NCBI GenBank assembly: GCA_020054815.1
Contig: JAIHAN010000008.1
Coordinates: 1-38,385 of the forward strand
From: Peptococcaceae bacterium
GTDB taxonomy: Bacteria; Bacillota; Peptococcia; DRI-13
Length of the DNA: 38,385 bases
Direction: 5' to 3'
Position numbers and translations under genes: made by a program. Of this stretch, positions 3,297 through 22,452 are shown piece after piece. Under the pieces are notes generated by a model. The model made no database searches. It saw nothing but the letters and a program-made list of their open reading frames with translations, and had not been told where the DNA came from. The number at the start of each line of letters is the position of its first letter. Within the stretch, counting starts at the first letter, position 1.

Positions 3297-3425
3297 AAAA
3301 ACTCCAAAAATATTTTTAAAAAGATCATAATTTTCGACAAAAAAGGCCTTGAGATTTTTGGAAAGCCCTCATAATTGCAAAGGACGGTACTTTTTACCAT
3401 CACACTGGCGATATGGGTGATATTG

Positions 3426-3990
3426 ATGAGCAAGCTTTGTAAAGCTACTTTCGAGAAAAAAGATCACGGGCGAGGTGCCGGAATTCCGGTACTCAAGACA
3501 ATCTGGGATTTGTTTGATCTTAAGCATCCTCACGGAAAAAAATCCCCTTTCTCTGCTGGCTCTTTGACAGTTCTGAAAAACGCCATGTCTGGTGCATGAA
3601 CCTTGTATCGACCCTTGCCGTTTTAAAAAATGGTCTGGAATATCCCATGTTATGGCGCTTTTGGGTTAAAACCGACCGGGAAAATGAAAAACAGACTAAG
3701 CTTGACCTGGCCAGAGAGATGCTCTCGGAAATACGTCGACTGAACAATGCCAGACTCTGGGTCGCCATGGATCGCTGGTTTCTGTGTAAAAAGTTCCTAT
3801 TCTGGCTTATAGCTCAGGGCTTTGATTGGGTTACCAAGGCCAAAAGCAATACGATTCTGTATCGGAAAATCTATGACCCTGTGTCACGTAAAGGACAATA
3901 CATCAAGCTTAACCCGAAACATTTGCTAAAAGAAGTAGCTTTTTACCCATAGCTGTTATTGCGGCAACTTATGAGAGACCCTTCTTTGCT
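3426..3990 (+). pseudogene. Broken DDE transposase (IS4-superfamily-like)
   Basis: The N-terminal piece begins at ATG 3426 (MSKLCKATFEKK...GAGIPVLKTIWDLFDL), then jumps directly to HPHGKK, so about 100 residues of the first catalytic region appear deleted. At a run of seven A near 3536-3542 the frame slips. After it the frame reads KKIPFLCWLFD, then RHVWCMNLVSTLAVL, then NARLWVAMDRWFLCKKF and AQGFDWVTKAKSNTILYRK, which is the second catalytic-Asp region of this family. The frame breaks again near LLKEV at about 3940, and all C-terminal sequence is missing. No intact inverted terminal repeats were identified. The right end abuts M20 peptidase sequence at about 3995, suggesting that insertion removed the front of that gene. 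Not functional. Confidence 0.85.
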
Positions 3991-3995
3991 ACGCA

Positions 3996-4829
3996 ACCTG
4001 GGAGTCGTGTATCTGGGAAAACTCTTTTAAAGATGAGAACGGTCATCCCGTTATTCGCCTGGGTAATAAGGGTATGCTCTATGTGGAAATGAGGGTAAAA
4101 GCCGCCGCTACAGACTACCATTCCCGTTTTGCTCCCGTTATTCCCAATGCGGCGTGGAGACTTGTTTGGGCCATTTCCACACTCAAAGGTGCAAATGAAA
4201 AAATACTCATTGAAGGATTTTATGATAAGGTTAGGTCTATTCCTGAAGAAGAATATGGTGCTTTAAAAGACCTGGCAGCCCAGGAAGACAAAATAAGAAA
4301 GCGGGCCCAGATAAAGGAATTATTAAACGGGGTAACAGGAATAGACTTTGCCAATCAACTTTTTAATGCGCCTACCTGTACCATTTGCGGGATAGAATCG
4401 GGATATACCAAAGAAGGCCAAAAGACAGTACTTCCCTCTACAGCCATGGCTAAGATTGATTTTCGCCTGACCGTGGACCAGGATCCTGAGGAAATTCTTC
4501 AATTGCTAAGAAAACATCTGGATAAGCACGGGTTCCAGGATGTAGAAATACATACCTTGAGTACTGCCAAACCGGCCAAGACTCCTATTACTTCACCGTT
4601 TGTTAAGGTTGTCTTGGAGGCAGGAGCTTTAGTCTATGACAAACCTTTTGTCATTGAACCAAGTTCCGCCGGGACCGGTCCCCGCTATGTTTTCAGTAGC
4701 TGGACCGATATGCCTATTGCCTCTATAGGCCCAGGATATGCAGGTTCTCTTAATCACGCACCTGATGAGAATATTGTCCTGGAAGACTACCGGCAAGCCT
4801 TGAAAGGTAGCAAACCAAACTCCTGCTGA
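3996..4829 (+). pseudogene. M20-family metallopeptidase, N-terminally truncated
   Basis: Similarity starts in frame at about CIWENSFKDENGHPVIRLG just upstream of the ATG at 4074 and runs to a normal-looking C-terminal APDENIVLEDYRQALK near 4803. The visible parts are the dimerisation (lid) domain, from KGMLYVEMRV, and the C-terminal half of the catalytic domain, with the late histidine region LNHAPDE. The N-terminal catalytic portion with the HxD and Glu-Glu metal ligands is missing and replaced by transposase wreckage. At about 4803-4812 the frame runs into a second M20 fragment and ends at TGA 4829 by reading out of frame. In the intact ancestor it was probably a peptidase or carboxypeptidase linked to the nearby transporter. 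Not expected to be active. Confidence 0.85.
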
Positions 4830-5184
4830 GATCTTTGAAAAGTTAGTAAGTTTTATCCGAAAGTTAGGATATGACAATGTTGATATAGAGCTTAAAGGAT
4901 GTGTAGAACCATCTAAAACTCCAGTCGATACGCCTTACCTCCCCCTTATAGAAGAAGCCACCCGGGAAACATATGGGGAATACATTCTCTATCCCAGTCG
5001 CCCCTCTACAGCTCCGGATTACTTATGGACCAATGTTTTGGGCTTACCCGCCATACAAGTACGCTGGGGGGATGCGGACTCGGGGAATCATGCGCCCAAT
5101 GAACATTTGGCCATTGAAACGTACTTGAAAGGAATTGAGTTAACAAGTCGTGTAATACGCGTTATTGGGGAAAAAGATCTTTAA
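4810..5184 (+). pseudogene. C-terminal half of a second M20 peptidase paralogue
   Basis: An open frame without a start reads ANQTPAEIFEKLVSFIRKLG and ends at TAA 5182-5184. It aligns by eye with the second half of the preceding fragment: TPAEIFEKL against DPEEILQLL, SKTPVDTPY against AKTPITSPF, and NHAPNEHLAIETYLKG against NHAPDENIVLEDYRQA. It is therefore the back end of a neighbouring paralogue, not a continuation of the same gene. A deletion between two tandem M20 genes, from the very end of the first to the middle of the second, explains the arrangement. Confidence 0.8.
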
Positions 5185-5192
5185 CCTAATAG

Positions 5193-5300
5193 TGTGACAG
5201 CTGGGTGATTCCCGGAGATATTGAACACCAGGCTGAAATTATAGAAGATTCAGTAGTTGTAGAAGTTTTCTCTCCCGTTAGGGAAGATTATCTGCCATAA
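5193..5300 (+). pseudogene. C-terminal remnant of a cupin-domain protein
   Basis: The frame [19 protein letters not shown], followed by a stretch ending [10 protein letters not shown] and TAA at 5298-5300, has no start; a TAG stands at 5190-5192. WVIPGDIEH followed by a Val-rich strand and FSPxREDYL is the typical end of small single-domain cupins, where the final His is a metal ligand. Only about 35 residues of an expected roughly 110 remain. It sits immediately after the M20 fragment and before a strong terminator, so it was probably the last gene of the decayed transport/peptidase operon. Confidence 0.65.
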
Positions 5301-5309
5301 AATAAAAAA

Positions 5310-5348
5310 CAATACACCCGGTTCAAGATGCCGGGTGTATTGCTTTGA
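5310..5348. terminator. Bidirectional intrinsic terminator
   Basis: A perfect 12-bp stem (5310-5321 with 5331-5342) with a 9-base loop lies between the converging cupin remnant and the yqeB-like gene. A-rich sequence on the left gives a U-tract on the minus strand, and TTTGATT gives a weaker one on the plus strand. Confidence 0.85.
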
Positions 5349-6152
5349 TTATAGTTTTTTGCTCTGCCTGAGATGGAGAATGGCTTCCAAAACCCCTCCA
5401 CCGATGGCCCGGGCTTTATCGGAAATAGTGTAGCAGTATTCCTTTTTGCCCCGGGGGTCTATATCACCGATTTTCATGCCCTGTTTTACGTGGGCCCCCT
5501 GGGCAATAATGCCGCGTACGATACCCGTAATAGGCGCCAGTACTGGGCTGCCGTGGACTTCCCCTATGATCTGGTCCTTTTCTACGGAGGAGCCGATCTC
5601 TACCAGCCCCTGAAATACTCCTGTCCCAGGAGCCCTGATAATACGTTCTACCGTGAAGCCTCCGATATCTCCGGGAATGCCGGTATCCGGTAAAGCTTCA
5701 CCCTGGTAGATAACTCTTCCCAGATCATGGCCCCGGCTTGTTTCGATGACGGCATCCACATCCTTACCTGCAGCGAAACCCGGTCCCACACCGATGACAA
5801 TGGGGGCCTGTCCTCTGTAGGTACCTAAATTACGCTTGGCGATAATGGCATCCACCAGGGCCAGGGGATGAAGCTGTGGGATATGTTGCCCGGAAGGGTC
5901 AATTAAAACAGGAATAAATCCTTCCGCCATTTTTTGCATGGCTTCATCAGGTGTGGAAACAAGGAGGGCCGTTACGCCCTCAATGGTTGTTTCCCCATCA
6001 TAGACGGCCTGGGCAAAGGCTACCGTGCGGCGGATTACAGTAGGTTGGGGTATTTCGAGGATGACAACGGAAAAACCGCTCTGAAATAGGCGATGAGCAA
6101 TTCCTGTGGCTAAATCACCACCCCCACGGATGATAACGGGTTGAGATGACAA
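5349..6152 (-). CDS. yqeB: Selenium-dependent molybdenum hydroxylase system protein, YqeB (EF2563) family
   Basis: Encodes 267 residues. The N-terminus has a glycine-rich nucleotide-binding-like start (VIIRGGGDLATGIAHRL). The middle has the family block VIGVGPGFAAGKDVDAVIET and GDIGGFTVERIIRAPGTG. The C-terminal half contains a lipoyl/biotinyl-like segment (SPVLAPITGIVRGIIAQG) and ends with KIGDIDPRG, followed by the A-I-G-G-G-V-L-E-A block. Family members accompany selenium-dependent molybdenum hydroxylases such as xanthine dehydrogenase or purine hydroxylase and are thought to help cofactor maturation; no hydroxylase gene lies in this window, so its partner must be elsewhere. The start is TTG at 6150-6152 with a weak AAAGG about ten bases upstream. 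A TATAAT matches at 6191-6196 on the minus strand without a convincing -35. It is one of few intact genes in a decayed stretch. Confidence 0.85.
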   Translation of the reverse strand: MSSQPVIIRGGGDLATGIAHRLFQSGFSVVILEIPQPTVIRRTVAFAQAVYDGETTIEGVTALLVSTPDEAMQKMAEGFIPVLIDPSGQHIPQLHPLALVDAIIAKRNLGTYRGQAPIVIGVGPGFAAGKDVDAVIETSRGHDLGRVIYQGEALPDTGIPGDIGGFTVERIIRAPGTGVFQGLVEIGSSVEKDQIIGEVHGSPVLAPITGIVRGIIAQGAHVKQGMKIGDIDPRGKKEYCYTISDKARAIGGGVLEAILHLRQSKKL

Positions 6153-6251
6153 ATTGTATCAGCCTTTCTTTATATAAAATTTCTGTTTCTATTATACCTG
6201 TTTCGTATGGCTGTTTGGCAGATTTAACGGAAGGGCGGAGTATGGTTTTTA

Positions 6252-6440
6252 ATGGTCCGCAGATATACAAGTTATTTCATAATCTATGTCTTTGTGGGGT
6301 TTAAAGAGGTAGGCGAACTTTCCCGGGCAGGGCGTCTTTTTACCGTCTTTTTAATTTTTTCCAGTGTGGGTACAGTGGGCTTATAGTTTTGGCAGTCTAA
6401 TTATTTTTGTCCTAATTTTCCGTTTTACCTATTGCTTAGA
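6252..6440 (+). pseudogene. Remnant of a potassium ion channel gene
   Basis: From ATG 6252 the frame reads MVRRYTSYFIIYV, which looks like the cytoplasmic end and first membrane helix. It is fused directly to VGFKEVGELSRAGRLFTVFL and SSVGTVG, which is the pore exit and second helix of two-helix (Ion_trans_2 type) channels. The pore helix and part of the selectivity filter are deleted. At about 6379 the frame shifts by one base and then continues AYSFGSLIIFVLIF, as expected after GTV in this family. A TrkA-N regulatory domain would normally follow; instead sequence runs into the end of the minus-strand HD-GYP gene. Not functional. The small size makes identification moderately sure. Confidence 0.65.
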
Positions 6441-7723
6441 ATATAACTATTTCTTTGTACTTGACTTGATAAAGAGGTCCACCGGTCGTCAATCAGGCCC
6501 CGGTTTTCAAAAAGGATGTCGGCTATTTCTCCATCTAAGGCACCGCCCCTTACCTGGTTATAAATGATCCTCTCTATCTCTCCCCAGGTGAGAGAGCTGC
6601 GATACGGGCGTTCTTCCCGTAACGCTGTGAATATATCCGCCACGGCCACGATCCTGGCTTTTGTATCCAGTTCGTGTGCCCCTTTGTGGAAGGGATATCC
6701 TTGCCCGTCAAGTCGTTCATGGTGATAGGCTGCCCACTCGGCTACAGGAAATGAGGGGAAAAGAGGCTTTAACCACCAGTATGTATAGTATGTATGTTGT
6801 TTCATGATGCTGAATTCTGCCGCAGTTAACGAACCGGGCTTTTGGATGATTTCCTCGGGAACTGACAATTTCCCGATATCATGGAGTAAGCCTGCCAGGT
6901 TAAGCAAGAACACTTCATCTTTGGGGAGCCCTGCCTGTTCCGCCAGGGAACGGGCGATGAGAGCTACACCCTGGGAATGCCTGTGGGTAAAAGGACTCTT
7001 GGCGTCAACGACTCTCGCATAAAGCCTGGCCATGTGTGAAAGGTCTTCCGGTTTGATACTCCGGCGGTTTTCAGGCAATTCATCAAGGAGACGCTGGGAG
7101 ACCCAGGAAGAAGTTAGGTCCATCCAGAGGCTTTCTACCTTTGTCAGATCAGCTACAACAGCCACCAGGTCGGGATCGAAAAGGGAACCCGCGTATTTTT
7201 GCAGTTGTTTAATAATATCATTGGACTGCTGTAAAATAAAAATCTTGTCATTAATCAAAACATCAACACGGTCGGCGACATAGATGATACGGCTGGGCAG
7301 AGGGATCTGGGTCCCGTAACGCCCGGAGGGATTATTTCCGGCCCAGGTGTCATGATGGGAGAGGACAATATCAGCAGCTTTATCCAGAAAAGGAATACCG
7401 GAAAGGAATTCGTAACCTTTTTGACAATGTTCCCAGGGACTTTGGACCTCAAACTGATGAAGGCTTCTTTTTTCGTTCCAGGTAACAGCACCTACATCAT
7501 GGATAATTGCGGCTGTGAACAAATTGAAAAGATCCTGTTCTTTAAGACCTGCAGCTTTACCAATGTATAATGATAGTAGGGCTACACGTTGGTGGTGTTG
7601 CAGCAATCCTTGCGATGAAAAATCAAGACTGCGGGAAAGGTGTACCAGGGAACTGGCCAGGTTAATTTCCAGTGAATGGGCAAATTCCTCCTTCTTGCTG
7701 TATAGAGATGTACAGGTTTCCAT
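6425..7723 (-). CDS. Tandem HD / HD-GYP domain phosphohydrolase-like protein
   Basis: Encodes about 432 residues with two HD domains. The first (about residues 35-190) keeps an HD pair in AAIIHDVGA and a second pair in LSHHDTWAGNN, but the GYP loop is degenerate (SGRYGTQIPLPSRIIYVADR). The second (about 240-405) is a canonical HD-GYP: HSQGVALIAR, LLHDIGKLSVPEEIIQKPG, H in MKQHT, YHHERLDGQGYPFHKGAHE, then RIVAVADIFTAL. HD-GYP domains hydrolyse cyclic di-GMP or related dinucleotides using a bi- or trinuclear metal site. The ATG at 7721-7723 is chosen because AGGGGGG lies seven bases upstream; a longer frame with nine extra residues lacks a good site. There are no membrane segments, so it is cytoplasmic. 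It is probably transcribed separately from the upstream coiled-coil gene because a terminator intervenes. Confidence 0.88.
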   Translation of the reverse strand: METCTSLYSKKEEFAHSLEINLASSLVHLSRSLDFSSQGLLQHHQRVALLSLYIGKAAGLKEQDLFNLFTAAIIHDVGAVTWNEKRSLHQFEVQSPWEHCQKGYEFLSGIPFLDKAADIVLSHHDTWAGNNPSGRYGTQIPLPSRIIYVADRVDVLINDKIFILQQSNDIIKQLQKYAGSLFDPDLVAVVADLTKVESLWMDLTSSWVSQRLLDELPENRRSIKPEDLSHMARLYARVVDAKSPFTHRHSQGVALIARSLAEQAGLPKDEVFLLNLAGLLHDIGKLSVPEEIIQKPGSLTAAEFSIMKQHTYYTYWWLKPLFPSFPVAEWAAYHHERLDGQGYPFHKGAHELDTKARIVAVADIFTALREERPYRSSLTWGEIERIIYNQVRGGALDGEIADILFENRGLIDDRWTSLSSQVQRNSYILSNR

Positions 7724-7885
7724 AAGAATCCCCCCTGCAACAAAGATCATGTTTCCTAGTATCTAATAAGCATCCTGCAAAAGTTTTAGCATGCTGAGAA
7801 GAATAATACCAGGAATTACTATTCGACATGAGGATACTTATCCCTTTTTAGAAATGTTGAAAAATCAATAATTAAGAAGAATCAT

Positions 7886-7921
7886 GCAAAAAATAACCCC
7901 CCTTGTTTTGAAGAGGGGTTA
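7886..7921 (-). terminator. Intrinsic terminator of the coiled-coil gene
   Basis: The stem AACCCC with GGGGTT (7895-7900 with 7915-7920), extended inward past one mismatch, overlaps the stop codon. On the minus strand it is followed by ATTTTTTG. Confidence 0.75.
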
Positions 7922-9133
7922 ACTATTCACTATTTCTTCGGCGTTAGCAGGTATTGAGGAAATTTCTTCCGCATCTGAATTATCGTCTAACTGATTCAAC
8001 TCGGTAGTGGCAGGGTTAAGGAAATCATAAATGCTCACTTTCTTAAAAATGTCCAGGTGATAAAAGACTTCAAAGTCTTTGGCTTTTTTCTCACAGACGG
8101 CAATATTTAAATCAGTTAAATTTAATTCAAGGGGAATTCCATTGTCGTCCACTTCCTCAAATTGCCTTTTAATAGGCAGGGCCTTAAAGATCTGGACAAA
8201 CTGGTCATCATTTAACAGGCGTATGGCGTTATAGGTATCTTTACCGCTAATGATTTTAAGTTCAATAGACTGGGTACTAAAACTGCGTTTGCCGGAGACG
8301 AAAACTTCCCCTTTGTATTTCTTGCCGATATAGGCATTTTTAAAGGTGTTGTAAGAGACGGTAACCTCTCCCAGTCTTTTGCTTTTAATCGAAGGATTCT
8401 TGCCGGCAGAGGTTTTCCCCACAAGGGAGCCTTCAATTACTTCCCTTAAAGTTATGTAATAGACCGTTTTCCTGCGCAAAATCGTGATATACACCTGAAT
8501 GGGCTGGCGGAATAGTTCTAAATCTTTAATTAGCATATCGGCCGAATTTATTATCTTCTCGTATTCCTTTCCCAAATCTACGGCCAGCAAAAAGTCAAAT
8601 TCTAAAAAGGTAACCGTTTCCCATACTTTATACTTTTCCAGAAGCTCCTCCAGGAGGGGAAGGACCTGCTGGACCTTTTCATTGATTATTTCTTCGTATT
8701 TAGGTTCCAGGTTGATTAACACCTGGCTCTTTTCTTTAATCTTATAAAGCCTGCTGGTGATATTCATTTGGCAATAATTGATATCGTTTTTAAAAGTAGT
8801 ATACTGTTCCCAGATCTTCTCCATTTCCTTGATTTTATTATGAATAGTTTCGATTTGTTGGAAATATTCGCCAAAACTGCTTTGTAACGTGCTGAGGCCA
8901 GGAGGAGCATTCAGCAAATTTTGCAAATCGATTAACGTTGATTTAAGGCTGTTGAGTTCTGTACTCAGAGACTGGCGGAGTTCGATGGGGAGTTTGCCGG
9001 TTTCGCTATAAGTAAGATAGCCTTTTTTCTGAATCTTTTTTAAATCTAGTAAAAGGGACTTTCTGGTCAGATAAAAACTGGTGATAATTGAGCCGCTAAT
9101 TAAGGCTATGATAAAAAGTACTATGTTTAACAT
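7919..9133 (-). CDS. Unrecognised membrane-anchored coiled-coil protein
   Basis: Encodes 404 residues and matches no family I can name. Residues about 2-22 (LNIVLFIIALISGSIITSFYL) form one N-terminal membrane helix with a short outside tail, followed by RKSLLLDLKKIQKK, so the bulk is probably cytoplasmic. Residues about 55-220 are rich in E, K, L and Q with heptad-like spacing (IETIHNKIKEMEKIWEQY, VLPLLEELLEKYKVWETV), suggesting coiled coil. Residues about 225-330 look beta-rich and basic (SIKSKRLGEVTVSYNTFKNA). The tail is acidic and Ser/Asn-rich. No enzymatic motif was seen. The layout recalls envelope or division scaffolds such as EzrA, but I see no sequence match. It is read alone with its own terminator. 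The ribosome binding site is weak. Confidence 0.75.
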   Translation of the reverse strand: MLNIVLFIIALISGSIITSFYLTRKSLLLDLKKIQKKGYLTYSETGKLPIELRQSLSTELNSLKSTLIDLQNLLNAPPGLSTLQSSFGEYFQQIETIHNKIKEMEKIWEQYTTFKNDINYCQMNITSRLYKIKEKSQVLINLEPKYEEIINEKVQQVLPLLEELLEKYKVWETVTFLEFDFLLAVDLGKEYEKIINSADMLIKDLELFRQPIQVYITILRRKTVYYITLREVIEGSLVGKTSAGKNPSIKSKRLGEVTVSYNTFKNAYIGKKYKGEVFVSGKRSFSTQSIELKIISGKDTYNAIRLLNDDQFVQIFKALPIKRQFEEVDDNGIPLELNLTDLNIAVCEKKAKDFEVFYHLDIFKKVSIYDFLNPATTELNQLDDNSDAEEISSIPANAEEIVNS

Positions 9134-9436
9134 TTACTCGACTACTGCACCACCCTTCTTTTTAACTAATGCTTATCTTTTTTCCTTATTCGCTGTCGGG
9201 GGGTAATAAACCTGCGCCAAGATGCGAATTTGTCGAAAAAAGGATAAAAATTCCCAACCCGACGAATGAAGTGCCTGCCCTGGGCTTTATCATAATAACC
9301 TTGGCACCAAGGAACAATGAAACGGCCCGTACCTGAAGAGGATACGGGCTTTTCTTTGGTCTCTTTAAAGGAAACAACGCCTTAGATGTTGAATAACTAA
9401 AAATGTCTTATTAAATGATGTAAGGAGTGCCTGTAG
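9134..9436. other. Intergenic stretch with an orphan plus-strand terminator
   Basis: No convincing gene lies here. A plus-strand frame without a start ends in TLAPRNNETART and a TGA directly before the terminator at 9325-9356. It could be the tail of a lost gene, but I do not recognise it. Confidence 0.5.
9325..9356 (+). terminator. Intrinsic terminator without an intact upstream gene
   Basis: GCCCGTA (9325-9331) pairs with TACGGGC (9343-9349), followed by TTTTCTTT. It reads on the plus strand, while the upstream gene is on the minus strand, so its original gene is gone or is a short RNA. Confidence 0.7.
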
Positions 9437-10417
9437 ATGATTCAAGAGATTTCTCCCCAACTTTATAAGCTGAATATACCCCTGCCCAATAACCCTTTAA
9501 AAGCCCTGAACTGCTATATTATTAAGGGACCCGAACGCACCCTGATTATAGATACCGGCTTTGCTCGGGAAGAATGCCGCAAGGCCCTGGATGAGGGTTT
9601 AAAGGAACTGGGTATTGATCTGCGTCAGACTGATTTGTTTATTACCCATTTGCATGCGGATCATTCCGGCAATATCTCTTATCTGGCCACAGCCAGTACC
9701 CGTATTTATGCCAGTAAAGCAGATGCCATAATAATTAATGCGGGTCGTGAAAGCAGCCACTGGGAGGAGATGCGGGTCTATGCGGGAAAGAGTGGTTTTG
9801 TCCCCATGGAACTGGAGGGGGCCATTGAGAAACACCCCGGCTATAGATTCGGTACGGAAGGAAATCATGAGATTACCTATATGGCTGAGGGAGACCGGCT
9901 TCGGGTAGGGGACTACAATCTTGAGATTGTGGAAACGCCCGGACATACAGGGGGTCACCTCTGCCTCTATGAACCGGAAAAGAAGATATTTTTTTCCGGC
10001 GACCATATCCTCTATGACATTACCCCTAACATCGCCCTCTGGTCAGATGAGGAGAACCCCCTGGAAGAGTATTTCCAGAGCCTGGATAAAATAAATAAGC
10101 TGGAGATAAATCTTACCTTACCCGGACATCGCAGCCTGATGGCCAGCCCCCGGGAGCGTATTGCCGAACTAAAATCCCACCATCAGAAAAGGCTGGATGA
10201 AGTACTGGAAATCCTGAAAGCCGGGACCATGAATGCTTACCAAGTAGCGTCCCGCATGACCTGGGACCTGACCTACAAAACCTGGGAGGAGTTCCCCACA
10301 CCTCAGAAATGGTTTGCCACAGGTGAGGCCATCGCCCACATTAAGTATCTGGTGGAAAAGGGGCAGGTTACCCAGGGGGAGAAAGACGGGGTAATAGTAT
10401 ATACTTTAGTAAGATAA
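9437..10417 (+). CDS. MBL-fold metallo-hydrolase with C-terminal winged helix
   Basis: Encodes 326 residues. The metallo-beta-lactamase signature THLHADHSGN gives His71, His73, Asp75 and His76. Further ligands lie in ETPGHTGGHLCLY, FFSGDHIL and LPGHRSL, so both zinc or iron sites look complete. The last about 80 residues (RLDEVLEILKAGTMNAYQVA... and HIKYLVEKGQV) resemble the small winged-helix tail found in LACTB2-like hydrolases. Members of this group are hydrolases for esters, thioesters such as hydroxyacyl-glutathione, or RNA; the substrate cannot be told here. The start is ATG after AAGGAG, ten bases away. It stands alone between terminators. Cytoplasmic, no signal peptide. Confidence 0.9.
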   Translation: MIQEISPQLYKLNIPLPNNPLKALNCYIIKGPERTLIIDTGFAREECRKALDEGLKELGIDLRQTDLFITHLHADHSGNISYLATASTRIYASKADAIIINAGRESSHWEEMRVYAGKSGFVPMELEGAIEKHPGYRFGTEGNHEITYMAEGDRLRVGDYNLEIVETPGHTGGHLCLYEPEKKIFFSGDHILYDITPNIALWSDEENPLEEYFQSLDKINKLEINLTLPGHRSLMASPRERIAELKSHHQKRLDEVLEILKAGTMNAYQVASRMTWDLTYKTWEEFPTPQKWFATGEAIAHIKYLVEKGQVTQGEKDGVIVYTLVR

Positions 10418-10538
10418 GAAAGAAGGCAAGCGTACCGCCTGCCGTGGCCATAGATATATCAAGCCCCTGATATGGGCTGTTATAGTTTGGGACTATTGAA
10501 TTGCATGGAAGAATGGAACTAGGTTAAATCAATGGTTT

Positions 10539-10592
10539 AAGAAATGCATGGGTTGTGGAGTCTGTGTCTCCACAACCCATGCATTTCTTTTA
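10539..10592. terminator. Strong bidirectional terminator with perfect 22-bp stem
   Basis: 10539-10560 and 10568-10589 are perfectly complementary around a 7-base loop. It separates the converging MBL hydrolase and DUF1847 genes; TTTTAG follows on the plus strand. Two weaker hairpins lie upstream at about 10427-10445 and 10462-10479. Confidence 0.85.
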
Positions 10593-11210
10593 GGGAAACA
10601 TCCTTGTTTTAAAATACCCATCTGCACAATAAAGGGCCCCTGCCGGATTGTGAGCCAGGATGCGGTCTTTGGCAACAAGGACTGTGGTAGGCGCATCTGC
10701 ATATTTAAAGAAGAGGCTGTCATGGCCCACACAGAGTCCGACCACAATATTGAAATCTACTCCGGCATGATTGAGGAGTTTGGCCTGGCTGATGGGATTA
10801 CACATGGCTTCAAACTGGCCGGGGCGTACTTTATCTTCTTCAGAAATGCCCAGGAAAGACTTTGCTGTCCCGCCGTTCTTGCACACTACGGAGACAACTT
10901 CAAAACCGTGGGAACGCAAAATTTTCGCCAGAATCCTGGCTTCTTGTTTAAGCCCAATACAAAAGGCAATACCAAGTTTATGGTAGTCCATGGCCTTAGA
11001 GAAATGGATGATTTCCTGTACCCGCGTCCACTGGCAATAGCCCTTGCTTTCCGTGAGGGCGGCCTGACGGGCGAAAAGTAGTATTTCATCACGATATTCC
11101 TTTTATATTTCCTCTTGCATGTTTGTCAGACGACCGGGACAGTTTTTGGGTAACTGGTCTGTTCGCCCTTCCCGGCAGCTGAGTTTTTCACATTCTGCAC
11201 AGGTAAACAC
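10590..11210 (-). pseudogene. DUF1847 metal-binding protein interrupted by one in-frame TAA
   Basis: Read as one frame from GTG 11208-11210 to TAA 10590-10592 this is 206 codons, the expected length for DUF1847 proteins. The N-terminus carries the zinc-ribbon-like cysteines (FTCAECEKLSCREG, then LPKNCPG). The frame is broken only by a TAA at 11103-11105, between NMQEEI and KEYRDEILLFARQAALTES. After it the rest is intact: FSKAMDYHKLGIAFCIGLKQ, VSVVCKNGG, QAKLLNHAG, VGLCVGHDSLF and the C-terminal AGALYCADGYFKTRM. No frameshift is needed. A GGGAGATG site precedes GTG by seven bases. Translation could restart at Met 10989-10991, but that would lose the cysteine cluster and about 70 residues. Function of the family is unknown. 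A sequencing error at one base is an alternative. Confidence 0.85.
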
Positions 11211-11308
11211 TGTTTTTCATCTCCCTAACAATAGATCTTTACGTAAATAAGTTTCTTCATTTTTAGGATATTACCTTTAAAATTTAGAAAGAATTTGATC
11301 TTTTCCCC

Positions 11309-11345
11309 GCAAAAAAATAGGGAAAGCCCTGTGACAGGCTTTCTC
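11309..11345 (-). terminator. Terminator of the dnaK-dnaJ-clpB operon
   Basis: GAAAGCC (11322-11328) pairs with GGCTTTC (11337-11343), and a run of seven T follows on the minus strand (A run at 11311-11317). It lies about 75 bases after the clpB stop. Confidence 0.8.
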
Positions 11346-11418
11346 TGTTCTCGTAAATATATACGCACTGACCCGGGAACTAGTGGGATCTGGGAAGTCA
11401 GAGCAGTACTGCGGCATT

Positions 11419-14016
11419 TTACTTTACTGTCAACTGCAGTTCGCCGTTTTTTGCCTCAAGGCTGATAGTAGAGCCTGGTGAAGCTTCGCCTTTTACCAGC
11501 AACCGGCTTAGGGGAGTTTCTACCTCCTGCTGGATCAGCCTTTTTAGGGGACGGGCCCCGAAGCTGGGGTCATAACCCTTGTTGGCCAGGTAAACTAAGG
11601 CTTCCTGGGACCAGGTCAAGGTAAGACGGGCTGTTTCTTTCAGGCGTTTGGCCAAACGCTCCAGCATCAAGGCAGTGATTTCCTGCATGTGTTTGGGTTC
11701 CAGGGCGTGGAAGACCACGGTCTCATCTACCCTGTTGAGGAATTCGGGACGGAAGTAGCGCTGCATTAGATTCATGACGGCATTCTTCATCCTGTCATAA
11801 TCATGAATGCCCTGGCGCTGGAATTCCAGGATTTCCTGGCTGCCGATGTTGGAGGTCATGATGATGACGGTATTTTTGAAGTTTACGGTACGGCCTTTGC
11901 CATCGGTAAGACGTCCGTCGTCCAGGATCTGCAGCATGACATTAAAGACGTCGTTGTGGGCTTTTTCAATTTCATCAAAGAGAATGACAGAATAAGGACG
12001 GCGGCGGACGGCTTCTGTTAACTGGCCACCTTCATCGTAGCCCACATAACCGGGAGGGGCACCAATGAGACGGGCTACCGTGTGTTTCTCCATATATTCG
12101 GACATGTCGATGCGGATCATGTTCCTTTCATCATCAAAGAGGGCTTGAGCCAGAGCCCGGGCCAGTTCTGTTTTGCCTACCCCTGTGGGCCCCAGGAAGA
12201 TAAAGCTGCCGATAGGCTTATTAGGATCCTTGATGCCGGCCCGGGCCCTTAAGACCGCATCGGCCACGGCGCGTACGGCCTGATCCTGGCCGATCACCCG
12301 CTGGTGGAGAAATTCATCCAGGTGGATAAGCTTTTCTTTTTCGCCTTCCATGAGTTTATTTAAGGGGATTCCTGTCCAACGGCTGACCACCCGGGCAATA
12401 TCCTCTTCATCCACTTCTTCTTTTAGGAGCATGTTGTTCTTTTGCTTGTTGGCCAGCAGTTCTTCTTCCGCTTTTAGTCTTCTTTCCAGGTCATTCATCC
12501 TGCCGTATCTTAGTTCGGCCATGCGGTTTAAGTCATATTCCCGTTCAGCTTTCTCGATTTCCAGGCGGGTTTCTTCTATTTCTTTTTTCAGCTGGCGTAC
12601 CCGGGCGATGGCCTGTTTTTCCACCTGCCACTGGGTGCGCATCACATCGGCTTCTGCTTTTAATTCAGCCAGTTGTTCCTGGATTTTCTGCAGCCGCTCC
12701 TGGGATACGGCATCTTTTTCCTTCTTTAAAGCGGCTTCTTCGATTTCCAGCTGCATAATGCGGCGGGTGATTTCATCCAGGGCTGTGGGCATGCTGTCGA
12801 TTTCCGTGCGCAGGCGGGCGGCCGCTTCATCCATGAGGTCGATGGCTTTATCGGGCAGGAAGCGGTCAGCAATATACCGGTCAGAGAGTGTGGCTGCTGC
12901 CACCAGGGCACTGTCCTGGATACGTACCCCGTGATGGACCTCGTACCGTTCTTTTAAGCCCCGCAGGATGGAAATGGTATCTTCCACTGAGGGGGGATTA
13001 ACCATAACGGGCTGGAAGCGCCGTTCCAGGGCGGCATCTTTCTCCACATGCTTCCGGTATTCATCCAGGGTGGTGGCACCAATGGCCCGCAGTTCACCCC
13101 TGGCCAGCATGGGTTTCAGGAGGTTGCCGGCATCCATGGCCCCTTCGGCCGCTCCCGCGCCTACTACAGTGTGGAGTTCGTCGATAAAAAGAATGATCCG
13201 GCCTTCAGACTTTTGCACTTCTTTTAAGACTGCTTTCAGTCTTTCCTCAAATTCACCGCGGTATTTGGCGCCGGCAATCAGAGCACCCATATCCAGGGCA
13301 ATAACTAATTTATTTTTCAGCCCTTCAGGGACGTCACCGGCCACGATTCTCCGGGCTAATCCTTCCACGATGGCAGTTTTACCCACGCCCGGTTCACCAA
13401 TGAGGACAGGATTGTTTTTGGTGCGGCGTGAGAGAATTTCTATGACCCGGCGGATTTCGTCATCGCGGCCGATAACCGGATCTAGCTTGCCTTCCCGGGC
13501 TAACCTGGTCAGATCACGGCCGTATTTTTCCAAAGCTTCGTAGGTTTCTTCGGGATTTTCGCTGGTTACCTGCTGGTTACCCCGGATAGCCTGCAAGGAG
13601 GCCAGCAGGGTTTCTCTTCTTAAACCCACCTGGCGGAAAAGGTCTCGAACTTCGCTTTCTCCTTCTTCCAGGAGGGCCAGGAGCAGGTGTTCCACACTGA
13701 CGTACTGGTCTTTCATATCCCGGGCTTCTTTTTCCGCCCTGGGGAATACTCTGGCCAAACCGCTGCCCAGCCGTAAAGAACCCTCGTAGCCGTGAACGGC
13801 AGGGGTACGGGCCAATAAATCCTCGGTCAGTCTCTGTATGGTAAGTAGATTTATCCCGGCATGTTCCAGGAAGCGGGGAATCAGGCCGCCCTCCTGTGTT
13901 AAAAGGGCGTAAAGTAAGTGTTTACCGGTAACTTCCTGGTGGTGCCGTGCTGCCGCCAGGTCCTGGGCTGAGGAAATGGCTTCTCGCGATTTTTGGGTAT
14001 AACGGTTAAAATCCAT
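11419..14016 (-). CDS. clpB: ATP-dependent disaggregase ClpB
   Basis: Encodes 865 residues, full length for ClpB. In order: double Clp-N repeat (residues about 1-145), first AAA+ module with GEPGVGKTA (about 205) and ILFIDELHT, a long coiled-coil middle domain (about 400-525, [19 protein letters not shown] and [19 protein letters not shown]), then the second AAA+ module with [14 protein letters not shown] and the [15 protein letters not shown] pore loop, and a C-terminal domain with [12 protein letters not shown]. Both arginine fingers appear present ([20 protein letters not shown]). The middle domain distinguishes it from ClpA/ClpC; it should cooperate with DnaK/DnaJ encoded upstream to extract proteins from aggregates. 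It is the third gene of the operon. The strong AGGAGGTG lies an unusual 27 or so bases before ATG, with a hairpin between. Confidence 0.97.
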
Positions 14017-14023
14017 AGCGCTA

Positions 14024-14051
14024 ACCCCTTAAAGCGGGGTATTCACCTCCT
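14024..14051 (-). promoter_or_regulatory. clpB leader: Shine-Dalgarno separated from ATG by a hairpin
   Basis: On the minus strand AGGAGGTG (14044-14051) is followed by ACCCC-GCTTTAA-GGGGT (14024-14040) and then by TTAGCGCT and ATG. The 3' arm contains AAGGGG, which stands eight bases before ATG and could itself serve as the ribosome binding site when the stem opens. An in-frame TAA in the loop rules out an upstream start. Confidence 0.55.
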
Positions 14052-14093
14052 TTTTAACATATCTAATTGTACATAATATTTACGGACCATTGT

Positions 14094-15092
14094 TTATCCC
14101 ACCCCTTTCCTTATCTGGGCCAGTTTCCTGTATAGATCAAGTTCTGCCTCGCTTAAAAGGGAGGGAAGGTCAATGCCTACTTCCACATAATGGTCCCCCC
14201 GTCCGCCTCCTTTTAATGGCCAGCCTTTACCGCGCAGGCGCAGCTTTTTTCCGCTGTGGGTTTGGGGAGGAATGGTGAGGATGATATCCCCATCCAGGGT
14301 GGCAGTGGTTACTTTGTCACCCAGGGCAGCCTGTTCGGGGGTAATAATGACTTTGGACTCGATGTCATTTCCTTTCAGGGTAAAGAGGGGATGGGGCTGG
14401 ATATTGACTTTGAGATAAAGGTCACCCCGCTGGCCACCTCCTAAACCTTCGCCTCCCTGATTCCTGAGGCGGATCTTGCTTCCGTTCTGGATACCTGGGG
14501 GGATCTTTACTTCCAGGGTCTTTCTCCCCGTTGTGTTTCCTGTGCCGCCGCAATAGGCACAAATACCCCTGTCCAGGTGCCCGCTGCCCTGACAGGCGGC
14601 ACAAATTTCCCTGGAGGTTAGTTGAATGGTTTTTTCACCGCCCCGGTAAGCTTCTTCCAGGGTAAGCTGAAGTTCGCTTTCTATATCCTGGCCGCGCATC
14701 TGGGGCTCCCAGCGAAAGCCGCCTCCGGTGCGGCTAGCCCTAGCTCTGCCAAAGAGGATCTCAAAGAAGTCACTGAAACCTGTTGCACCCAGATCCCCAT
14801 CGTTCCAGGTGTAAAAGTGGAAACCATCCATATCAGGCGGCGGCTGCCATTCCTGGCCATGTTGCCAGTTGGCGCCCAGACGGTCATACTTGGCCCGTTT
14901 TTCGGGATCACTGAGAACCTCATAAGCTTCGTTAATTTCTTTGAATTTTTCTTCGGCGGCTTCTTTCTCGCTCCCTGTTTTCAGGTCGGGGTGATACTGG
15001 CGGGCTAATTTACGGTAGGCGCTTTTAATCTCCTGTTCCGTGGCCGTACGTTCCACGCCCAGGATTTTATAATAGTCTTTATATGTCGTCAT
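14094..15092 (-). CDS. dnaJ: DnaJ-like co-chaperone with a half zinc finger
   Basis: Encodes 332 residues. The J domain (residues 4-72) has the HPD motif at 34-36, so it can stimulate DnaK ATPase. A linker with [12 protein letters not shown] and [11 protein letters not shown] replaces a long Gly/Phe region. The central part has just two CxxC-type pairs, C164/C167 and C178/C181, enough for one zinc site; classical DnaJ has four pairs and two zincs. The substrate-binding barrels follow ([20 protein letters not shown], then [15 protein letters not shown] and [18 protein letters not shown]). It is shorter than standard DnaJ (about 375). It sits between dnaK and clpB; the start has AGGTGGTGAG upstream. 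It could be called CbpA-like; the dedicated DnaJ of the cell may lie elsewhere. Confidence 0.9.
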
Positions 15093-15115
15093 TTATCGTT
15101 CTCACCACCTTATGA

Positions 15116-15148
15116 CTTAAGGCTGCCGGATAGACCGGCAACCTTAAG
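15116..15148 (-). promoter_or_regulatory. dnaK-dnaJ intercistronic stem-loop
   Basis: The stem at 15116-15129 with 15135-15148 is 14 bp with one G-U wobble and a 5-base loop. It lies in the 72-base gap between dnaK and dnaJ, and no uridine run follows on the minus strand. It fits an mRNA processing or stabilising element better than a terminator. Confidence 0.65.
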
Positions 15149-15164
15149 GGAGTAAAGGAAGATC

Positions 15165-17042
15165 TTATTTTTCACGGTATTCGGCATCAATGACATCATC
15201 TGGTCCCGCCGTGCTGGTATTACCGGCGTAGTTTCCTGGCTGGGGATTACTGCCCGTATAGGCGAAGGCTGCGGCAGCCTGCTGCAGGTCACCGGTAAGG
15301 GAACGAATACGGTCGATGGCCGCATTTTCTTTGAGGGCAGTCTTCAGATCATTGACAAGCTGCTCAATCCGGGCTTTTTCGTGGACAGGCAGCTGGGTTC
15401 CCTGTTCTCTGAGTTTTCTTTCAACCTGATAGACCAGGCTGTCGGCTTCATTGCGAATCTCTACTTCCTGACGGCGTCTTTTATCTTCGGCTGCGTTGGC
15501 TTCAGCCTCTCTGACCATCCTGTCTATTTCTTCTTTGGAGAGGGTGGAGGAGCCGGTAATGGTCACAGTTTGCTCTTTGCCCGTAGCCTTATCTTTGGCG
15601 CTTACCTTTAAGATGCCATTGGCGTCAATGTCAAAGGTAACTTCAATCTGGGGTACGCCGCGAGGAGCGGGAGCAATACCTTCCAGTTTAAACTGGCCAA
15701 GGGTCCGGTTGTCTTTGGCCATTTCCCGTTCGCCCTGCAGAACATGGATGTCTACGGCAGGTTGATTGTCCTCTGCCGTGGTAAAAATCTGACTGCGGCG
15801 CACAGGAATGGTCGTATTCCGCTCAATGATTTTGGACATTACGCCGCCCAGGGTTTCTACGCCCAGGGAGAGGGGAGTGACGTCCAGGAGCAGGACATCT
15901 TTCACTTCACCGCTGAGTACACCTGACTGAATAGCAGCCCCCACAGCCACGACTTCATCAGGGTTTACTCCCTGATGGGGATCCCGTCCTCCCGTCAGTT
16001 CCCGTACCAGCCGCTGTACTGCAGGAATCCGAGTAGAACCTCCTACCAGGATAACCTGGTCAATATCTTTAGCTGTCAGTTTGGCATCAGCCAGGGCCGC
16101 CAGTACGGGGCCGCGGGTGCGTTCCACCAGGTGATGGGTCAGGTCTTCGAATTTGGCCCGGGTAAGTTTCATATCCAGGTGCTTGGGGCCTGTAGCATCA
16201 GCTGTAATAAAGGGCAGGCTGATCTGGGTTTCGGTAATGGTGGAAAGCTCGATTTTGGCCTTTTCCGCCGCTTCCGTCAGGCGTTGCAGGGCCTGACGGT
16301 CTTTACGCAAATCAATGCCATAGTCTTTCATGAATTCCTCAGCCAGCCAGTCGACAATGGCTTTGTCGAAGTTGTCGCCGCCCAGATGGGTGTCGCCGTT
16401 GGTGGCTTTTACTTCAAAAACGCCGTCGCCCACTTCCAGGATGGATACGTCGAAAGTGCCGCCGCCCAGGTCATAGACCAGGATGGTTTCATTCTTTTTC
16501 TTGTCCAGGCCATAAGCCAGGGCCGCTGCCGTAGGTTCGTTAATAATACGCAGGACATTGAGGCCGGCAATTTTACCGGCATCCTTGGTAGCCTGCCGCT
16601 GGGCATCGTTGAAATAAGCGGGCACGGTAATGACGGCATCGGTGATTTTTTCGCCCAGATACTTGGAAGCATCATCAACCAGTTTCTTTAAGACCATGGC
16701 GGAAATTTCTTCCGGGGCATAAAGTTTACCGCCGATATCGAAACGTACGGTATCATTGGGACCGGGTACTACCTTGTAAGGGACAAGGTTCCTTTCCTCG
16801 GCAACCTCTGAGTAGCGGCGGCCGATAAAGCGTTTAACGGAATAAAGGGTCTTGTCAGGATTGAGGGCAGCCTGGCGTTTGGCCACCTGGCCCACCAGTC
16901 TTTCCCCTCCTTCCCTGAAGGCAACCACAGAGGGAGTTGTTCTGGACCCTTCTGCATTGACGATCACTGTAGGTTTACCGCCTTCTAATACTGCCACAAC
17001 TGAGTTGGTTGTACCCAAGTCAATACCTACTGCTTTTCCCAT
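15165..17042 (-). CDS. dnaK: Chaperone protein DnaK (Hsp70)
   Basis: Encodes 625 residues. The N-terminal ATPase has the phosphate-1 motif [23 protein letters not shown], the [14 protein letters not shown] block, phosphate-2 [15 protein letters not shown] and adenosine motif [16 protein letters not shown]. The interdomain linker [15 protein letters not shown] leads to the substrate-binding domain and lid. The C-terminus ends [13 protein letters not shown], matching bacterial DnaK tails. The gap between ATPase lobes is the short Gram-positive type. The start is ATG after TAGGAGG. It is the first gene of the operon with dnaJ and clpB. Neither grpE nor hrcA is adjacent, in contrast to the common hrcA-grpE-dnaK-dnaJ order of Firmicutes. 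A promoter with CtsR-like boxes lies upstream, and I saw no CIRCE element. Confidence 0.97.
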
Positions 17043-17084
17043 AATAAAAACCTCCTAATAACATATATTAATAATTATTACTAA

Positions 17085-17156
17085 ATTGACCAAACTTGAC
17101 CTTAATTTTATTATCGTATTTTTGATATTTTTGAGCAAAGGTCAGAATAGGTCAGG
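17085..17156 (-). promoter_or_regulatory. dnaK promoter flanked by two CtsR-like operators
   Basis: On the minus strand a -35-like TTGCTC (17133-17138) and GATAAT (17110-17115) are 17 bases apart. Just downstream lies GGTCAAG-TTT-GGTCAAT (17085-17101, minus strand). Just upstream lies GGTCAGA-ATA-GGTCAGG (17140-17156, plus strand). Both have the heptamer-3-heptamer direct repeat of the CtsR operator (consensus RGTCAAA NAN RGTCAAA). The match is good at GGTCA and looser afterwards. Confidence 0.6.
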
Positions 17157-17573
17157 ATACAACCAGAAGGGTTATTTTCTCAAATCTACTTAATTTACGT
17201 TGTATTATCTCACTCAATTATTATTTTTTGTCATCATTTAGCATTTTTAACCAAGACTTTTCCGGGGAAATTTTAAAAGCCAGTGTGGGCATTAAAAAAA
17301 CTATCTGCCTGGTCAAAGAAGTCCTGACCAAAGATTTGGAACACTCTTTTGACAGCAAGAAAAATTGTCGGAACCGTGTAGAATTACAATTGTTTTTACA
17401 CGGTTTTTCTTTTGGTTATAACTTAGTTCAGGTGCCTCTTATCTTAGCTAAGTTATTAATTGTTAGATTGAAAATACCGAGGTAAAATTGAAGTATCTTA
17501 CATAAATTAGTTCTTGTTATCTATCGAAAAGTAGTAAAATAGAGGAGAAATTTGACTGTAAAATAGGAGATGG
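17157..17573. other. Long intergenic region between dnaK and the crotonase gene
   Basis: It contains a further GGTCAAA (17311-17317) facing an inverted copy (17325-17332) and a plus-strand terminator at 17372-17413. An 85-codon TTG-initiated frame has no ribosome binding site and contains the terminator, so I do not call a gene. Confidence 0.5.
17372..17413 (+). terminator. Orphan plus-strand intrinsic terminator
   Basis: AACCGTGTA (17372-17380) pairs with TACACGGTT (17397-17405) over a 16-base loop, followed by TTTCTTTT. No plus-strand gene precedes it, so a small RNA or a decayed gene is possible. Confidence 0.65.
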
Positions 17574-18362
17574 ATGTTTGTGGAGAAACTGCTGGTAAAC
17601 TATGATGGTCCTTTAGGCTGGCTAATTTTCAATAATCCCCGGAAACGTAATGCGCTAAATTTAGAAATGTGGCGGGGAATACCTGAAATTATCCATAAAT
17701 TCAACGAAGACGAAAACATCAGAGTTATCATACTGAGAGGGGCCGGGACAGAAGCCTTTGCCTCCGGTGCCGATATCTCCGAATTTGGCGAGTTACGCAG
17801 CAGCCTGGCTACCTCTGAGCGTTATAACCGGGCAACGGAGGAGGCCTTCTCCGCCATAAAATCGTCGGCTAAACCGGTCATTGCCATGATTCACGGGTTT
17901 TGTGTTGGCGGCGGATGTGCCATTGCTTTACAGTGTGATTTGCGGGTGGCTTCAGAAGAGGCCAGGTTTGGCATTCCCGCTGCAAAACTGGGAATTGCCT
18001 ATGGATATGAAGCTGTAAAACAACTGGTAAATGTAGCCGGTGCCCCCTTTGCAAAAGAAATGTTATTTACAGGACGTGTTTACGATGCGGAAACGGCACT
18101 CCGGATGGGATTAATTCATCATAAGGTTCCCACTCTTGAACTTGAAACCTTTACCCGGGAGTATGTCCTCACTATTGCCCGTAATGCGCCACTGACCATC
18201 CGTTCCGTTAAGATGGCTGTGGAGGAATACCTAAAAGAGCCGGAGTTAAGGGATTTACACAAGGTAGAACTAGAAATGGCCAGGTGTTTTGACAGTCAAG
18301 ATTACCAGGAAGGCTACAGGGCTTTCTTAGAAAAACGCAAGCCCAGGTTTCAGGGCAAATAA
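17574..18362 (+). CDS. Enoyl-CoA hydratase/isomerase (crotonase) family protein
   Basis: Encodes 262 residues, normal for the crotonase fold. The two oxyanion-hole segments are present: AFASGADISEF (about residues 61-71) and IHGFCVGGGCAIALQCDLRV (106-125). In classical hydratase two glutamates act. The second is kept (E162 in AKEMLFTG), but the first, usually in QPE, is Ala136 in FGIPAAKLGIAYGYEAVKQL. It may therefore be an isomerase, decarboxylase or thioesterase-like member and not a hydratase. The C-terminus QEGYRAFLEKRKPRFQGK is typical. It stands alone between dnaK and a terminator. The start is ATG at 17574 near TAGGAG, or possibly GTG at 17580. Confidence 0.88.
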   Translation: MFVEKLLVNYDGPLGWLIFNNPRKRNALNLEMWRGIPEIIHKFNEDENIRVIILRGAGTEAFASGADISEFGELRSSLATSERYNRATEEAFSAIKSSAKPVIAMIHGFCVGGGCAIALQCDLRVASEEARFGIPAAKLGIAYGYEAVKQLVNVAGAPFAKEMLFTGRVYDAETALRMGLIHHKVPTLELETFTREYVLTIARNAPLTIRSVKMAVEEYLKEPELRDLHKVELEMARCFDSQDYQEGYRAFLEKRKPRFQGK

Positions 18363-18396
18363 AAGTGGCCGGTGAAATACCGACCACTTATTTTTT
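18363..18396. terminator. Terminator between crotonase and methyltransferase genes
   Basis: The stem at 18363-18373 with 18379-18389 has one mismatch and a GAAAT loop, followed by TTTTTT (18391-18396). It serves the crotonase and overlaps the stop of the minus-strand gene. Confidence 0.85.
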
Positions 18397-18987
18397 ACCT
18401 AAAACAAAATACAGGTCTTCATTATCCTTTTTATCTATTACTTTGAAGCCTACTTCTGTGAGAAGAGCCTCCAGGTCTTCGGCAGGAGGTAAGCCATGGG
18501 AAATCAAGCTCCGGCCAAGTTCCTTGTGCCTCTCATTTATGGTCTCCCGGCTTTCCGAGTGACAGATTAAAAGGAGACCGCCATCTTTTAAGTACCCTTG
18601 CATAGCCTGAAGGGTTTCCCAGGGATTGATAAAATGAGGAAAAACCGAGTAGCACACAATTGCGTCAAAACTTTGGGGAGGAAAAGAGGCCTTGGTAACG
18701 TCGCCTGCAATAAACTGGATGTTGGGATGGGGAAATTTGGCTTTGGCTTTTTCTATCATTTTTTCGGCCACATCAATAGCGGTTATCCGTCCTGTTTCGC
18801 CAACCAGCTTCAGGAGAAAAGGCAATAAGATTCCCGTGCCTGTTCCCACATCCAGTACGGAAGCGCCGGGGATTAAACAAAGTTTGCTTAAAAGGTTTTG
18901 GATTTTTTCAGGGTTATGGTTCACAATATTGTCCCATTGGTCTGCTTTATTGTTGAAGAAATTACGATTAAGTTCTACTGTCATCAT
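18388..18987 (-). CDS. Class I SAM-dependent methyltransferase
   Basis: Encodes about 199 residues from ATG 18985-18987; a TTG four codons upstream is possible but has no spaced ribosome site. The Rossmann-type SAM fold shows motif I VLDVGTGTGILLPFLL, an acidic strand-2 residue in RITAIDVAEKMIEKAK, motif II-like QFIAGDVTKASFPP, then FDAIVCYSVFPHF and LKDGGLLLICHSES. No substrate-specific domain is recognisable, and small-molecule or quinone-type methyltransferases look similar. It overlaps the end of the Fur-family gene by about 20 bases, so it is translated as part of the same transcript and may belong to the metal-responsive regulon. Confidence 0.85.
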   Translation of the reverse strand: MMTVELNRNFFNNKADQWDNIVNHNPEKIQNLLSKLCLIPGASVLDVGTGTGILLPFLLKLVGETGRITAIDVAEKMIEKAKAKFPHPNIQFIAGDVTKASFPPQSFDAIVCYSVFPHFINPWETLQAMQGYLKDGGLLLICHSESRETINERHKELGRSLISHGLPPAEDLEALLTEVGFKVIDKKDNEDLYFVLGKK

Positions 18988-19435
18988 TATCCTGCTCAAC
19001 TCCGGAATTTTTTCTGCAATCCTTACAGTAACCGTATATTTCGATGCGGTGTTCTGTGGGTAAAAAATCTGTAGATTCCCGCAACGTCTTTTCTAACTCG
19101 CCCAGGGGGCAGTAAGGTAATCGTTCTGTCTTATGGCATGACTTACAGATCATATGATGAAGGTGAGATTCCGGTCCCCGCAGCTTAAATTTTGCCCCGT
19201 CGGCGAAATTCAGCTTTTCGATGAGCCGGCTCTCTACTAAAATTTCCAGATTTCTGTAGACCGTTGAGAAATTTATCTTTGGGCTTCGGCTTCGTACCTG
19301 ATCATAGATTTCGGCAGCATTAAGAAATTTATCTTCAGAGCTGCAAAAAACAGAAATGATGATTTTACGGGCAGGTGTTAGTTTAAAGCCTTTATCTTTA
19401 ATTGTATCGTAAATAAATTCTATTTTCGCAGGCAT
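18968..19435 (-). CDS. zur: Fur-family metalloregulator, probably Zur
   Basis: Encodes 155 residues. The N-terminal winged helix is about residues 1-82 (GFKLTPARKIIISVF, then NFSTVYRNLEILVE). The dimerisation domain has HLHHMICKSCHKTERLPYCPL and HRIEIYGYCKDC, giving two CxxC pairs (C97/C100 and C137/C140) for the structural zinc and several His for the sensory site. It sits about 120 bases downstream of the zinc ABC transporter genes, which makes Zur more likely than Fur or PerR; the assignment is by context. A CAGGAG site precedes ATG. It probably binds the palindrome upstream of znuA and represses when zinc is sufficient. Confidence 0.85.
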   Translation of the reverse strand: MPAKIEFIYDTIKDKGFKLTPARKIIISVFCSSEDKFLNAAEIYDQVRSRSPKINFSTVYRNLEILVESRLIEKLNFADGAKFKLRGPESHLHHMICKSCHKTERLPYCPLGELEKTLRESTDFLPTEHRIEIYGYCKDCRKNSGVEQDNDDSRT

Positions 19436-22056: not shown

Positions 22057-22187
22057 GGGTTTATGTGTTAATAACTGGAAGTAGTAATATTCTTATTTTT
22101 TCAAATTGTTATTGGTGAAAAAGAATAACTTGCAAAATCCTGCATAGTTATGTAACATATACTTGAAAAAAACTTTATACATTATCT

Positions 22188-22390
22188 GTTAGGTGCCCTT
22201 TCAGGGAGAATAGGGAAACCGGTTAAAATCCGGTGCGGACCCGCCGCTGTAATCGGAGACGAATCCCCAAAATGTCACTGTCCGGCACTTAACTTTATGG
22301 TTAGTAATATAGTTACTACCACTAAGTTAAGTGCAGGGTGGGAAGACGGGGAGGAGGATGACACGAGAGCCAGAAGACCTGCCTAACGGG
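22188..22390 (+). ncRNA. Cobalamin riboswitch aptamer
   Basis: It follows the class consensus: GGTGCCC start, GGGAAACCGGT then CCGGTGCGGACCCGCCGCTGT, TCGGAGACGAATCC, GTCACTG, and GACACGAGAGCCAG followed by the B12 box AGCCAGAAGACCTGCC (22368-22383). The variable arm between GTCACTG and GGGAAGACGGGG is enlarged by a long stem in which CACTTAACTT at about 22286 pairs with AAGTTAAGTG at about 22324. It precedes cobalt transport genes cbiMN, so adenosylcobalamin binding should switch them off. Confidence 0.95.
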
Positions 22391-22452
22391 AAGCCTGCTA
22401 TCTGGGGAACAGAACAGGCTTAAGCGGACTAAGTCTTTGAGGCGGGTTACAG

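Follow-up and report, generated by a model that had tools for sequence, protein, structure and literature searches.

A probable CtsR promoter-operator with two opposed boxes at the second dnaK operon of a Peptococcaceae bacterium

Introduction

The window, meaning the whole analyzed stretch of 38,385 nucleotides, contains a dnaK gene (hereafter dnaK2) followed by dnaJ2 and clpB (Table 1). A sequence-only reading had noticed two heptamer-3-heptamer GGTCA repeats around its promoter, no CIRCE, and neither hrcA nor grpE, and had proposed control by CtsR instead of HrcA. Our analysis indicates that positions 17085-17156 very probably constitute the CtsR promoter-operator of dnaK2-dnaJ2-clpB, and that a separate dnaK1 operon answers to HrcA. 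The original proposal is likely correct for the dnaK2 operon, given the presence of ctsR, the box at ctsR-mcsA-mcsB-clpC and the conservation of the module, with the correction that hrcA, grpE and CIRCE do occur in this genome, at another dnaK (dnaK1).

Table 1. Features of the dnaK2 locus (window coordinates)
Feature	Position	Strand	Remarks
clpB, 865 aa, disaggregase	11419..14016	-	TIGR03346 above cut-off
dnaJ2, 332 aa	14094..15092	-	J domain and C-terminal domain
dnaK2, 625 aa	15165..17042	-	TIGR02350 and NF001413 above cut-off
Proximal CtsR-type box, GGTCAAG-TTT-GGTCAAT	17085..17101	-	Covers the presumed start site; from sequence and conservation, 7/8 orthologues of the order
-10 hexamer, GATAAT	17110..17115	-	17 nt from -35; from sequence and conservation
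-35 hexamer, TTGCTC	17133..17138	-	Weak; from sequence and conservation of TTGC
Distal CtsR-type box, GGTCAGA-ATA-GGTCAGG	17140..17156	+	Opposite orientation, 1 base upstream of -35

Two dnaK operons in one genome

The absence of hrcA and grpE holds for the window but not for the genome. Neither gene is adjacent to dnaK2; both are found with dnaK1 at C95, in the operon hrcA - thermosome-like chaperonin - grpE - dnaK1 - dnaJ1, with a perfect CIRCE at hrcA. Since hrcA, grpE, a perfect CIRCE and another dnaK exist elsewhere in the genome, the dnaK2 operon is a second dnaK operon, and dnaK2-dnaJ2-clpB would be a grpE-less chaperone operon whose genes are presumably co-transcribed. DnaJ2 gave no match to the DnaJ zinc-finger domain model; only two CxxCxGxG-like motifs were seen by eye, and none in the DnaJ2 of the more distant genome G028. 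The chaperonin gene between hrcA and grpE (L011:1991-3562) has the thermosome as its best NCBIfam match, below cut-off, and we take its product to be probably a bacterial group III chaperonin (cf. PMC5220055). C59 (L012:1638-5288) encodes the third Hsp70 of this genome, a divergent protein of 578 aa; the next gene specifies a J-domain protein that has repeats and, at its C terminus, a SEC-C-like motif (both assigned by eye).

The lack of CIRCE was upheld in the window at up to three mismatches; at up to five, a single site appeared at 6389, far from dnaK2. This bears on the possibility of dual control, in which the dnaK2 promoter would respond to CtsR and, in addition, to HrcA or some other heat regulator. 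Such overlap of CtsR and HrcA on dnaK is known from other Firmicutes (PMC6305308), and this genome does carry hrcA. Nevertheless, with a perfect CIRCE at hrcA and only that remote degenerate site in the window, dual control appears improbable.

The search for ctsR suggested by the sequence-only reading was successful. The gene (PF05848, 120.5 bits, C11:2246) encodes a protein that has both the HTH and the dimerisation domain and matches the solved CtsR structure 3h0d at 131 bits, RGGGG loop included. It is the first gene of ctsR-mcsA-mcsB-clpC, where the names mcsA and mcsB are our assumption from sequence and gene order. In the ctsR promoter, GGTCAATAAAGGTCAGG stands right after TATAAT, and a box of the dnaK2 type marks ctsR both here and in the sister genome. 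The accompanying suggestion, to look for the motif before clpC and clpP, was borne out in part: the box is present at ctsR-mcsA-mcsB-clpC, but no CtsR box was found upstream of clpP in eight genomes (nine loci, best score 6.1). An hsp20 gene of this genome is also preceded by two looser boxes.

Promoter and paired boxes upstream of dnaK2

Read along the gene strand, the distal box, which points away from dnaK2, is followed after 1 nt by TTGCTC, a 17-nt spacer, GATAAT, 8 nt and the proximal box, which points with dnaK2; an AGGAGG ribosome-binding site and the dnaK2 ATG at 17042 come next. The two GGTCA repeats were confirmed at exactly the coordinates first given and in opposed orientations, one directly above the -35 and the other over the probable start site, which we would place near 17101-17104. 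The -35 hexamer matches the consensus at three of six positions, and the TTGCTC/GATAAT pair was absent from the output of a generic promoter scan. Both hexamers are backed by their conservation in relatives, where TTGC is retained, TTGC itself having belonged to the search pattern.

Both boxes have the form of a CtsR operator, namely a heptamer direct repeat with a 3-base spacer, as well as its placement on the core promoter, bracketing TTGCTC-17-GATAAT (as judged from sequence and conservation). The GGTCA core is exact in all four heptamers, while their final two bases (AG, AT, GA and GG) differ from the AA of the consensus (A/G)GTCAAA. This amounts to two and three mismatches in the two boxes, and the genome's own ctsR box departs similarly. 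Centre to centre, the boxes are separated by about 53 bp, or nearly five turns of the helix.

Exact GGTCAN5GGTCA occurs twice in the window, and both matches are the dnaK2 boxes. When one mismatch was allowed, three matches were found against a shuffle mean of 1.6, and 22 of 100 shuffles reached three, so that the bare motif is not significant in the window. The case for the dnaK2 boxes therefore rests on their pairing, place and conservation. Across the 2,715,011 bases of the genome the exact motif occurs seven times (four for the reversed-pattern control): two sites are at dnaK2, one is at the ctsR promoter and four fall within open frames of 120 codons or more; of these frames, the one with the site C124:26275 is short and perhaps not a gene. 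The ctsR box itself lies in an open frame too, where that of ctsR is extended at its 5' end. As for the pairing, dinucleotide shuffling of the 300 nt preceding dnaK2 did not equal the opposed pair in any of 2000 trials, at a spacing range of 45-60 nt that was set after the data were seen. A search with the simple consensus RGTCAAANNNRGTCAAA at two mismatches was uninformative alone (78 matches, 121 in the reversed control), though it did lead to the paired boxes at hsp20.

Conservation in related genomes

Orthologues of dnaK2 with at least 76% identity were found in eight of the 25 genomes searched in the order, including the present genome (G000) and its sister (G001), which are not independent of each other; a further orthologue (71% identity) is present in G028, of the same class but outside the order. 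The order dnaK2-dnaJ2-clpB occurs in G000, G001 (as judged by alignment), G009, G014, G016, G024 and G028, and also in G010, where clpB is broken into two frames and truncated at the end of the contig. In G017, clpB is not adjacent to dnaK2 and is sited elsewhere.

The upstream regions of dnaK2 were scored with a 15-position matrix, trained on ctsR promoters alone in order to avoid circularity. The training boxes came from 20 of the 22 ctsR-bearing genomes (G007 and G016 were left out as unclear), and their constancy is inflated by overlap with the ribosome-binding site. With this matrix, the distal box scores 19.7, and an opposed pair was recognized at dnaK2 in seven of the eight same-order genomes, representing five families. 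The weaker box of the pair scores between 7.5 and 16.1 in these seven genomes, and in each none of 2000 shuffles was as good. Other single high-scoring sites exist in the window, e.g., at 435 (20.0), 23954 (17.7) and 23539 (14.4). The opposed pair is not universal: the matrix found no boxes upstream of dnaK2 in G017, and in G028 the two top-scoring boxes (24.8 and 23.5) have the same orientation. The 80 loci from a DnaJ2 scan of named genomes, mostly of other phyla, yielded 16 DnaK-like upstream regions, of which none scored 14 or more and one scored 10 or more.

A search pattern built from six dnaK2 promoters (G000, G001, G009, G010, G014 and G024), which consists solely of TTGC and the inner half-sites, was run over 46 genomes. 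It returned 24 rows, corresponding to 22 distinct places in 20 genomes, compared with two for the reversed control. These places comprise the six source promoters, 11 sites before ctsR, two before clpB (G017 and G018) and three strays. All 13 ctsR/clpB modules have the outer half-site, which is not part of the pattern, at the proximal box (NGTCA), and nine have it at the distal box (GGTYA); in the three strays neither box has it. In 15 of the 19 modules a -10 hexamer TATAAT or TACAAT stands at a distance of 16-19 nt from TTGC, GATAAT stands at 17 in G000 and G001, and no -10 was called in the two clpB modules. Box centres are separated by 52-55 bp in 18 of the 19 modules and by 49 bp in the remaining one, again near five helical turns, a constancy to which promoter geometry itself contributes. 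The case of G017 is telling, since clpB has left the operon there and the module stands at the separate clpB and not at dnaK2. The ctsR promoters of family f7 (G017-G020, G022 and G023) combine a start-site box with a second, opposed box between -35 and -10, an arrangement that differs from the dnaK2 module.

These data also bear on whether the repeats could be operators of another regulator that recognizes GGTCA direct repeats, the likeness to CtsR boxes being incidental. The heptamer tails do depart from GTCAAA, and binding of CtsR to the boxes is a prediction. However, the module precedes ctsR in 11 other genomes and a matrix derived from ctsR promoters alone recognizes the dnaK2 boxes, and we regard a different regulator as very improbable, slightly more so than dual control. 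That the boxes are chance repeats in AT-rich DNA, devoid of any regulatory role, is hardly credible, for although a one-mismatch motif is expected 1.6 times per window, conservation already contradicts it, with the opposed pair recurring at similar spacing in five families and enriched before ctsR and clpB.

Flanking sequence

A third GGTCAAA with an inverted partner at 17311-17332 had been pointed out as well. It was rejected as a CtsR box: it is not a heptamer-3-heptamer direct repeat, its matrix score is 7.8, and it is not conserved in the sister genome, which is deleted and diverged at the counterpart.

In the 262 nt preceding dnaK2, identity between the present and the sister genome is 98.1%, as compared to 85.3% for dnaK2 (62.6% at third positions). 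Along dnaK2 and dnaJ2, however, identity in 100-nt windows ranges from 72 to 100%, most of dnaJ2 being at 96-100% (two windows of 24 and 27% were set aside as a gap and the end of the alignment). Because identity varies in this way and mosaic recombination can account for it, upstream hyperconservation was not used as evidence and the idea of a longer functional element was dropped. Positions 2533-18996, compared with L219/L220 of the sister genome, likewise show a mosaic of about 79 to 99% identity by block, a pattern that suggests recombination.

The enoyl-CoA hydratase gene adjoining dnaK2 (17574-18362) is reduced to a C-terminal stretch in the sister genome (L131), where the deletion ends about 280 bp before dnaK2. 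On the + strand, the promoter scan reported TTGACC-17-TATTAT at 17086-17114, its -35 being part of the proximal box, and an inverted repeat with a T-rich run behind it was noted by eye at about 17375-17412; a short divergent transcript from this promoter-like pair is possible. An Rfam search of the window found only a cobalamin riboswitch (22174-22400, 115.4 bits), upstream of a gene at 22552 that by eye resembles a cobalt transporter component.

Proposed regulation

In Bacillus subtilis, CtsR dimers occupy heptamer repeats in the core promoter and thereby prevent initiation; the repression is lifted by heat together with McsB, ClpC and ClpX (PMC12634643). The simplest reading is that the same mechanism operates here; binding, repression and heat induction at this promoter are all predicted from sequence. 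In unstressed cells, one CtsR dimer would occupy each opposed box, one abutting the -35 and one over the start site, and RNA polymerase would be excluded from the promoter. Upon heat or protein damage, CtsR would be released and inactivated, assisted by the McsA, McsB and ClpC encoded in the ctsR operon, and the DnaK2-DnaJ2-ClpB disaggregation set would be made together with ClpC. The hrcA-chaperonin-grpE-dnaK1-dnaJ1 operon would respond separately to HrcA at CIRCE.

A bolder version may be entertained tentatively, and we consider it rather unlikely as a whole: the two CtsR dimers, on mirror-oriented boxes, would confront each other across the polymerase site and might bridge it, clamping the promoter, in a dedicated architecture by which this bacterial group assigns DnaK2-DnaJ2-ClpB to CtsR and DnaK1 to HrcA, so that the two Hsp70 sets would have different heat thresholds.

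Relation to known systems and significance

The operator form and core-promoter placement, as well as the box at ctsR-mcsA-mcsB-clpC, agree with the B. subtilis CtsR regulon (ctsR-mcsA-mcsB-clpC, clpP and clpE) as described in PMC12634643, where the site is likewise a heptanucleotide direct repeat with a 3-base spacer. In contrast to that regulon, clpP is without a box here, and the apparent target is dnaK-dnaJ-clpB, whose promoter lies between two opposed boxes. That CtsR can control dnaK is already known. PMC6305308 describes such control as exclusive in Oenococcus oeni and as overlapping with that of HrcA in streptococci and staphylococci. As in O. oeni, the dnaK2 studied here is apparently under CtsR and not HrcA; unlike O. 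oeni, which lacks hrcA and CIRCE (PMC6305308), the present genome possesses the two, at another dnaK. For Clostridium acetobutylicum, CtsR sites have been predicted at ctsR-clpC, hsp18 and a dnaK operon (PMC3828012). The ctsR-clpC and dnaK targets are shared with our genome, in which two looser boxes precede hsp20; the single hrcA-grpE-dnaK-dnaJ operon of C. acetobutylicum is predicted in the same source to be under both regulators, whereas here the regulators seem to be split between two dnaK operons. Among titles and abstract openings of the open literature, no description was found of an HrcA/CtsR split between two dnaK operons, nor of opposed CtsR boxes or of CtsR boxes at a second dnaK-dnaJ-clpB operon. 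What is added here is the apparent division of the two operons between two regulators, together with the opposed module in its fixed form.

This bacterium probably operates two sets of Hsp70 chaperones, each answering to a heat sensor of its own. This points to a natural split, with a disaggregase set (DnaK2-DnaJ2-ClpB) under CtsR and a folding set (thermosome-like chaperonin, GrpE, DnaK1 and DnaJ1) under HrcA. For genomes whose clpP is no CtsR target, the module also offers a strict promoter signature of CtsR that can be searched for, and the question of why some bacteria keep two dnaK genes becomes testable through regulation.
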